DNA of 44,555 bases, taken from Thermus scotoductus DSM 8553. Lineage in GTDB: Bacteria > Deinococcota > Deinococci > Deinococcales > Thermaceae. Below the pieces are notes generated by a model, which did no database searches, was not told where the DNA came from, and saw only the letters and a program-made list of their open reading frames with translations. The stretch lies in NCBI RefSeq assembly GCF_000381045.1, contig NZ_KB905745.1:1-44555 (forward strand), read 5' to 3'. The translations under genes were made by a program, and so were the position numbers. How positions within the stretch are numbered: the stretch's first letter is position 1; every line of letters starts with the position of its first letter. Positions 18,436-41,682 of the stretch are shown here, piece after piece.

Positions 18436-18449
18436 ACTGGGATTCCAAC

Positions 18450-18481
18450 CCAAGGGGGTGGCCTGAAGGCCACCCCCTTGG
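18450..18481 (+). terminator. Intercistronic hairpin livK-livH
   Basis: CCAAGGGGGTGGCC-TGAA-GGCCACCCCCTTGG, a perfect 14-pair stem without a U tract, between livK and livH. Such hairpins protect the upstream mRNA or stop part of the transcripts. Confidence 0.65.
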
Positions 18482-18500
18482 CCCGGAGAAAGGAGGCACC

Positions 18501-39833: not shown

Positions 39834-39974
39834 CATGCTGGTGAAGCCTTCAGCCGGGCCACGGTGCACCAGGTGAGGGGTGTGGCGGTGTACGTAGTCC
39901 ATCCTGAAGACTTTAAGGCTTTAAAAAGGGCCTTTGGCCGCCCCATAGATCTGCACGACCTCGAGGAGCTATGA
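39834..39974 (+). pseudogene. 3' remnant of a nucleotidyltransferase-like gene
   Basis: This stretch reads HAGEAFSRATVHQVRGVAVY then VVHPEDFKALKRAFGRPIDL and HDLEEL. The pattern V-x-V-x-HPEDF-x-x-LKRA-x-GRP-x-DL-x-DLEEL is the usual C-terminus of small (DUF6036-like) nucleotidyltransferases. A TGA at 39831 cuts the frame and no nucleotidyl motif remains upstream, so it is a tail. GTG 39864 could start a 36-residue peptide. Its stop overlaps the next ATG, as in an intact pair. Confidence 0.45.
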
Positions 39975-40201
39975 GAACAATCCTGCCCATTGCCCGCAAG
40001 TTTCCCCTTAACACCCCCTTAAACGACCAAAGCGAGTGGCGGAGCCTCCCTCTGGAGGAGCGGCTCAAGGCCGTTTGGGAGATGGCCCTTTTCTGGGCGG
40101 AGCTGGAGAGGGAAAGGGCCGAGAGGGAGGGCCGGGAAGCTGAGATCGCCACGGACCGCCTCCTGCCCGTGGCTCGTAAAAGGCCCCTGGACAAAACGTA
40201 G
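39971..40201 (+). CDS. Uncharacterised small protein
   Basis: 76 residues, no membrane segment. A charged helical core (WRSLPLEERLKAVWEMALFW, then AELERERAEREGREAEI) is flanked by two similar motifs, LPIARKFPLN at 5-14 and LPVARKRPLD near the C-terminus. I do not recognise the family. It follows the nucleotidyltransferase-like tail with an ATGA overlap, so it may be a partner of that gene, as in minimal toxin-antitoxin pairs, but this is only inference from position. Confidence 0.5.
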   Translation: MRTILPIARKFPLNTPLNDQSEWRSLPLEERLKAVWEMALFWAELERERAEREGREAEIATDRLLPVARKRPLDKT

Positions 40202-40202
40202 G

Positions 40203-40248
40203 GCGGGGAGGATTTTTGCAACCTATAGGTTTACAAAATCCTCCCCGC
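40203..40248. repeat. 46-bp palindrome overlapping the sdrP promoter
   Basis: Outer arms GCGGGGAGGATTTT / AAAATCCTCCCCGC (40203-40216, 40235-40248) and a perfect centre AACCTATAGGTT (40220-40231); only the three pairs between them mismatch. It starts one base after the preceding stop codon and covers the -35 of sdrP. Confidence 0.9.
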
Positions 40249-40258
40249 GTGGTAGCCT
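40230..40258 (+). promoter_or_regulatory. sdrP promoter
   Basis: TTTACA (40230-40235), 17-bp spacer, TAGCCT (40253-40258), then GGGGGCAAGGAGGTAACC and ATG 40277. The -35 and half the spacer lie in the 46-bp palindrome. Confidence 0.6.
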
Positions 40259-40276
40259 GGGGGCAAGGAGGTAACC

Positions 40277-40885
40277 ATGACCCAGGCCCGCGAAACCGTA
40301 ACCTTCAAGCCCGGCGAGGTCATCCTGTACCCGGGGGTGCCGGGGCCCCGGGACCGGGTCTACCGGGTCCTCGAGGGGCTCGTGCGCCTCGAGGCGGTGG
40401 ATGAAGAGGGGAACGCCCTCACCCTGCGCCTGGTTCGCCCCGGGGGGTACTTCGGCGAGGAGGCCTTGGCAGGCATGGAGCGCACGTACTTCGCCGAGGC
40501 GGTGACCGAGGTGGTGGCGGAGCCCCTCCCCAAGGAACCCCATCCCGAGGAGATCCGCCAGGTGCTCCTCAGCCTGGCCCAGGCCCTTTCCGAATCCTAC
40601 CGGCGCATTGAGCGCCTGGCCACCCAGCGCCTGAAAAACCGCATGGCCGCGGCCATCCTGGAGCTGGCGGAAACCCCCTTGGCCCACGAGGAGCCGGAGG
40701 GCTTGGTCCTCCGAGCCACCCACGACGAGCTGGCCGCAGCGGTGGGGAGCGTGCGGGAAACCGTGACCAAGGTCATCGGGGAGCTTACCCGGGAAGGCTA
40801 CATCCGCTCCGGCTACGGCAAGATCATCCTAAAGGATATCCAGGGCCTCAAGGAACTGGCCCAAAGCCGGGGGGACGGGCGCTAG
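40277..40885 (+). CDS. sdrP: CRP/FNR-family transcription factor SdrP
   Basis: 202 residues, the length of T. thermophilus SdrP, and close to it by recall (ILYPGVPGPRDR, LVRLEAVDEEGNALTLRLVR). A reduced cyclic-nucleotide-fold domain (1-95), a dimer helix (RRIERLATQRLKNRMAAAIL) and a winged helix-turn-helix (THDELAAAVGSVRETVTKVI). SdrP acts without cAMP and activates nutrient/redox and stress genes in stationary phase and under oxidative stress. AAGGAGG precedes ATG 40277. A strong hairpin follows the stop. Confidence 0.93.
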   Translation: MTQARETVTFKPGEVILYPGVPGPRDRVYRVLEGLVRLEAVDEEGNALTLRLVRPGGYFGEEALAGMERTYFAEAVTEVVAEPLPKEPHPEEIRQVLLSLAQALSESYRRIERLATQRLKNRMAAAILELAETPLAHEEPEGLVLRATHDELAAAVGSVRETVTKVIGELTREGYIRSGYGKIILKDIQGLKELAQSRGDGR

Positions 40886-40893
40886 GGATTCCA

Positions 40894-40920
40894 CCCCAGC
40901 CTGGCCAAGCCAGGCTGGGG
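40894..40920 (+). terminator. sdrP terminator-like hairpin
   Basis: CCCCAGCCTGGC-CAA-GCCAGGCTGGGG, a perfect 12-pair stem eight bases after the sdrP stop; no U tract. The rest of the gap to 41044 shows only a TAAACT -10 at 41032-41037. Confidence 0.7.
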
Positions 40921-41031
40921 GCCCCGGCAGCACCACCCCCCTTGCAGTCCTCGCCCGTGTGGGGAGATGGGTAGACCTCCTCCCTGAGCCTGAGCCTCGC
41001 CGCCAGCCCGCCCCCACGGAGGATTTCCCCG

Positions 41032-41044: not shown

Positions 41045-41682
41045 ATGCGCCTGCGCCAGAGGTTCCTCACCGGGCTGGTTACCCTTCTTCCCCTTCTGGT
41101 CACCCTCTACTTCCTGGCCTGGGTCTACACCTATTCCGGGGGCTACATCCAGAGCTTCCTGCGCCTTTTGAACCTCGAGGTGCCCCGAACCTACCAGCCC
41201 CTCCTACCCTTCGTGGGGCTCTTCCTGGCGGGGGTGCTCATCTACCTGGTGGGCACCGTGGCGGAAAACTACCTGGGCCGAAGGCTCATCGTCTCCCTGG
41301 AGCGCTCTTCCCCATCGTGCGGGACATCTACAAGGCGGTGCAGCAGATCACCCACACCCTCTTCGGCCACCAGGAGGTGAAGTTCAGCCGGGCCGCAGTC
41401 ATCGAGTACCCCCGGAGAGGGCTTTACACCCTCTGCTTCGTGGTGCAGCCGGTAAACGGCCGCCTTCCTCCCTTGCCGGAAGGGTACACCGTCGTGCTGG
41501 TGCCCACCAGCCCGGTGCCCGCCAGCGGCATGGTCATCCTGGTGCCCACGGAGGAGGTCATCCCCTTGGAGATCAGCGTGGAGGATGCCCTCAAGTACGT
41601 GGTTTCTGCGGGCTTCCTCCTCCCGGAAAAACCTTCAGGCTCCTTAACCTCCCTCCCACAAAAGGCCGGGCCCTCGGCGTAG
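41045..41682 (+). pseudogene. DUF502 membrane protein with a frameshift
   Basis: Residues 1-87 (two membrane helices, MRLRQRFLTGLVTLLPLLVT and LLPFVGLFLAGVLIYLVGTV) and a second frame from about 41306 (LFPIVRDIYKAVQQITHTLF ... VPTEEVIPLEISVEDALKYV) together make one DUF502 protein. They are in different frames. One missing base in CGCTCTTCCCC near 41304-41308 explains it (CGCCTCTTCCCC would restore L-E-R-L-F-P-I-V-R). Either a real recent mutation or a sequencing error; codon use on both sides is normal. DUF502 proteins are of unknown function. Confidence 0.85.

Follow-up and report, generated by a model that had tools for sequence, protein, structure and literature searches.

The stretch of DNA analyzed here, referred to below as the window, comprises 44,555 nucleotides of Thermus scotoductus DSM 8553 and contains sdrP, the gene of a CRP/FNR family regulator, preceded by a small open reading frame (ORF) and by a long palindrome that reaches into its putative promoter (Table 1). 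The downstream stress-regulator gene had originally been named sdrP from the letters alone, and this name is borne out by the match of its product to the structure of SdrP from T. thermophilus (2zcw, E 5e-99); a second structural match (8yz7, E 2.8e-54) is what we take to be Deinococcus DdrI. The 76-aa ORF upstream gave no Pfam match, and a tblastn search of 34 loci gave matches to it in 21, each of them one of the 27 Thermus loci. Two side observations concern the DNA downstream of sdrP. A strong G+C hairpin (CCCCAGCCTGG...CCAGGCTGGGG) lies at about 40893-40921, a few bases past the sdrP stop codon and without a T tract, and a sequence resembling it is seen behind sdrP in some relatives. Farther on, between 41045 and 41682, two overlapping ORFs in different frames resemble one membrane protein split by a frameshift near 41305; the break looks like a sequencing error or a pseudogene.

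Table 1. Features of the sdrP upstream region in the window.
Feature	Position	Strand	Remarks
76-aa ORF between cutA and sdrP	39971..40201	+	ends one base before the palindrome
46-bp near-perfect palindrome	40203..40248	.	20/23 pairs, best of the window
Left outer G+C arm GCGGGGAGG, strain-specific	40203..40211	+	neither sequence nor pairing conserved
Conserved core dyad ATTTTTGCAACC-TATA-GGTTTACAAAAT, proposed operator	40212..40239	+	upstream of sdrP across Thermus and, as variants, in other Thermaceae and related families
Left inner half-site AACC	40220..40223	+	AAC near-invariant in 44 distinct cores; right half and fourth base covary
Right half-site GGTTTACAAAAT	40228..40239	+	TTTAC invariant in the distinct cores, next bases nearly so
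TTTACA, -35-like hexamer within the right half-site	40230..40235	+	inferred promoter; 17-18 bp before the -10-like hexamer in orthologues
Right outer G+C arm CCTCCCCGC, strain-specific, in promoter spacer	40240..40248	+	neither sequence nor pairing conserved
Extended -10, TGG-TAGCCT	40250..40258	+	TGNTAGCCT or near variants in Thermus orthologues
Shine-Dalgarno AAGGAGG	40265..40271	+	from sequence
sdrP (CRP/FNR family regulator, 202 aa)	40277..40885	+	PDB 2zcw; Pfam cNMP_binding, HTH_Crp_2

The palindrome is as real as originally predicted. Its two 23-nt arms, with no spacer between them, are 87% complementary, with 14 outer pairs, three mismatches and six inner pairs in that order. With 20 of 23 positions paired, it ranks first among the even-centred 46-bp stretches of the whole window, the runner-up (18443-18488) reaching 18 of 23, and 18 was also the maximum in 200 dinucleotide-preserving shuffles, where it was attained three times. 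The placement claimed for it was equally correct: the TAG stop codon of the upstream ORF (40199-40201) ends one base ahead of it, the -35-like TTTACA lies within it, and no run of T follows its stem.

Comparison with relatives divides this palindrome into two unlike parts, a conserved 28-bp core and strain-specific outer arms of 9+9 bp. The core (ATTTTTGCAACC-N4-GGTTTACAAAAT) is found in front of sdrP, in near-identical form, in all 27 Thermus genomes aligned; the sole Thermus core that is 1 bp shorter, that of locus L006 (G022:C16), has three and not four bases between AACC and GGTT and is a natural spacing variant. The outer arms pair at 10 of 10 positions (core edge counted) only in the window strain. 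The remaining 26 Thermus loci have between 0 and 8 paired positions out of 10-11, and even L004, which has the SdrP closest to that of the window, has just 5 of 10. The perfection of the 46 bp is a property of the window strain. The original prediction had been staked on conservation upstream of sdrP in related strains: this held strongly for the 28-bp core and failed for the outer arms. Because relatives do not keep these arms, the two uses suggested for all 46 bp, a site for two dimers and an extruded cruciform, are left without support. It is tempting to speculate that chance, or the correction of a quasi-palindrome at replication, fixed this strain-specific addition.

The core itself reaches beyond the genus. 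It is present at sdrP in 22 of the 23 non-Thermus Thermaceae genomes, the exception (G047) being 85% complete and having no clear sdrP orthologue. Beyond the Thermaceae, where 29 of 61 genomes were searched and 22 had a match, the element stands upstream of sdrP in five of the six genomes with a match in family f4 (the g13 genomes carrying a diverged form), three of three in f2 and two of three in f3, and it was not found in any of the nine f5 genomes examined (ten had a match; L237, from G083, was left out). It is present in G056 (L104), the upstream region of L110 shows no element, and that of L226 (G054, f3) shows a near-match alone, TTTTTGTTTGCAAATT, seen by eye. A total of 90 records were examined and 79 have the element; as numerous genomes are represented by two records, distinct cores were counted, and the statistics on the core refer to 44 of these, with L006 (27 bp) dropped. 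TTTAC is constant in 44 of 44, and the spacer and the flanking arms vary. The left flank beyond AAC is merely A+T-rich and differs among genera; outside Thermus, the right half mostly has TG in place of GG, and TTGTAA is missing from the left half.

This conservation includes the putative promoter of sdrP. TAGCCT (40253-40258) lies 17 bp past TTTACA and has a TG one base ahead, as in an extended -10 element, and the distance from -35 to -10 is 17 or 18 bp in all 79 loci that bear the element. In families f2 and f3 the start codon lies farther downstream, yet the spacing between the element and the -10 stays at 17 bp, which argues that the element is part of the promoter rather than of the translation start. 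The sdrP promoter was not listed by a promoter scan that needs 9 of 12 consensus matches, and we assigned it from conservation. Transcription would start at about 40265, so that the leader would be very short. The sdrP mRNA is known to go up in stationary phase. No description of the sdrP promoter was found in the open-access literature consulted; the two papers in which Agari and colleagues first described SdrP (2008 and 2010) may contain one.

The symmetry of the core was analyzed in the 44 distinct cores, with the following results: (i) pairing on the proposed axis was 0.661, versus 0.27-0.54 on eight other axes, the closest competing axis, half a base off, being not far below (0.543), (ii) the cores' own halves paired better than swapped halves (0.661 versus a mean of 0.612), none of 2000 shuffles being as good in a comparison that ignores relatedness, (iii) at the inner pair, 14 cores have C:G, 20 have A:T and 10 are unpaired, at the next pair 36 have C:G, two have T:A and six are unpaired, and AACC/GGTT alternates with AACA/TGTT and, in two cases, with AATA/TATT, and (iv) symmetry is weak beyond the inner 4-5 bp, where, past the AAC block, core position 8 pairs in 10 of the 44 cores, position 7 in 22 and position 6 in 2. 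The core combines two-fold symmetry, conservation at a promoter and covarying half-sites, the marks of a dimeric operator, with a covariation that owes most to a small number of clade-level changes. Such covariation is as expected of the half-sites of a dimer, without amounting to proof of one.

The element is also rare in the genomes that carry it, most of which have a single good match. When up to one mismatch is allowed, AACM-N4-KGTTTACAAAA matches 48 of the 50 Thermaceae genomes, between one and three times each; the sites include that at sdrP everywhere except in G047, and most of the other matches carry one mismatch. Without mismatch, the same pattern matches in 48 of the 111 genomes of the phylum, at most twice per genome, and most Thermus genomes contain KGTTTACAAAA by itself just once. 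As the matches are few per genome and include the sdrP copy, the element appears to be dedicated to sdrP, or nearly so. A dyad search that allowed two mismatches recovered the sdrP site in 27 of 27 Thermus genomes; a few scattered matches with two mismatches lay beyond sdrP, at a single place of G001 (on both strands) and in G007 and G017. Separately, GGTTTACAAAA occurs three times in G049:C36 (142369, 145860 and 149379), at intervals of about 3.5 kb, perhaps in repeated genes.

On balance, we lean towards the 28-bp core being a deeply conserved operator, dedicated to sdrP and centred near -40, for a putative dimeric factor. The functional part of the palindrome would be the core, a two-fold symmetric operator about 40 bp before the inferred sdrP start, the right half of which would double as the -35 region. 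The putative protein would most likely recognize AAC[C/A] in the left half and [G/T]GTT(TACAAAAT) in the right half. Bound near -40, it might either aid the binding of RNA polymerase (class II activation), an option that would fit a -35 of TTTACA and not TTGACA, or block the polymerase, and it would act on sdrP alone or nearly. It counts against such an operator that conservation at a single locus is unusual unless the factor is the gene's own product.

The -35 lies inside the most conserved block, so another account has to be weighed, namely that the region is only a strongly constrained sigma-A promoter, composed of an A+T-rich UP-like stretch, the -35, an A-tract in the spacer and the extended -10, with no dedicated regulator. 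The coincidence of this block with the -35, the presence of a -10 17-18 bp farther on and the A+T-rich left flank throughout are consistent with it. However, the conserved sequence is TTTACAAAA in place of the TTGACA consensus, and hardly any further copies of it exist in these Thermus genomes. Nor would promoter function by itself call for the covariation of the inner bases across the axis. A promoter without a dedicated regulator is in our opinion an unlikely explanation of these data.

The one-locus distribution of the element brings in SdrP itself, which might autoregulate its own promoter via an atypical site: a single dedicated locus travelling with sdrP would explain about one element per genome, always before sdrP, and the right half of the core holds TTACAAA, near the half-site TYACAWT published for SdrP (PMC8465061). 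At the core, nevertheless, the full consensus given there for SdrP (TTHA1359), AWTGTRA-N6-TYACAWT, mismatches at no fewer than 5 of its 14 specified bases, and the window offers matches of this quality 158 times. Furthermore, 9 bp separate TGYAA from TTACA in Thermus cores in place of the required 6-bp spacer, and the binding work described there found that altering this spacer by 1 bp abolished observable binding, so that a site of the published type was rejected. The Meiothermus left half, TCAACA, contains no SdrP half-site either. Autoregulation via an atypical site is in our judgment decidedly unlikely. A site for TTHB099 (consensus TGTRNYYYRRRNYACA, as given in PMC8465061 and PMC7662524) was rejected as well, the best matches near the promoter having 4 of 14 mismatches and lying outside the core, at 40251.

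Another reading would make the long palindrome a cruciform, or else an RNA hairpin that terminates or insulates the transcript of the upstream ORF. The stem of the window is indeed very stable (z -7.8 for the single-stranded DNA fold) and begins one base past a stop codon, and across Thermus the arms on average give stronger folds than their shuffled versions (mean -16.4 versus -14.0, z -4.4, with the 27 loci taken as independent), which makes a general tendency of these arms to pair possible across the genus. Nevertheless, the arms of a locus fold just slightly better with each other than with swapped ones (-16.3 versus -15.4 kcal/mol in 26 distinct sets), 1193 of 20,000 permutations being equally good, Meiothermus and others appear by eye to be without such arms, and the core is retained in six Thermus loci that have no tblastn match to the upstream ORF. 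As for a terminator in particular, the G+C stem at 40203-40248 is not followed by the T tract of intrinsic terminators, it is not listed in the scan, and no Rfam family scored above its cut-off; this candidate was rejected. We hold a hairpin or cruciform role to be very improbable. Finally, an operator for BirA, the biotin repressor, is hardly credible: the right half, GGTTTACAA, is identical to one of the BirA half-sites (TTGTAAACC and GGTTTACAA, 14-15 bp apart according to PMC545781), and the left half, TTGCAACC, is one base short and has one base different from the other, but only 4 bp separate the halves of the core, GG usually turns into TG and TTGTAA is lost outside Thermus, and a relaxed BirA-type pattern occurs in just 2 of the 50 Thermaceae genomes, in neither case at sdrP.

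Returning to the core as an operator for a putative dimeric factor, a more far-reaching proposition is that a lineage-wide single-gene operator, present in Thermus, Meiothermus and deeper branches of the order, ties a putative stress-sensing regulator to sdrP. We put this forward tentatively, as a possibility that we would not yet call probable; if true, such an operator would supply the missing input by which the level of SdrP is set. SdrP is active without a known effector, and control via its amount has been suggested (PMC8465061). Since SdrP needs no known effector, its control would go through its amount, which makes the switching of sdrP transcription a central question. The core offers a concrete, deeply conserved place to look for this switching and a 28-bp bait for the regulator.

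Several known systems invite comparison. The sites of CarH are direct repeats of the TnTACA type, and the same direct-repeat reading was considered by eye for the core. The palindrome resembles intrinsic terminator hairpins in that a strong stem comes right after a stop codon, and differs from them in its missing T tract, in its unconserved arms and in the overlap of the stem with the next promoter. With the BirA operator (TTGTAAACC-N14/15-GGTTTACAA) the core shares an identical right half-site in Thermus, whereas its spacing of 4 bp, the loss of the likeness outside Thermus and the unrelated gene set the two apart. Compared with the sites of class II activators of the CRP/FNR type (SdrP/TTHA1359 and TTHB099), the half-sites of the core are about 3 bp too far apart and its left half is not TGTRA, but, like those sites, it is a dyad lying over the -35, about 40 bp before the inferred start, with TTACA in its right half.
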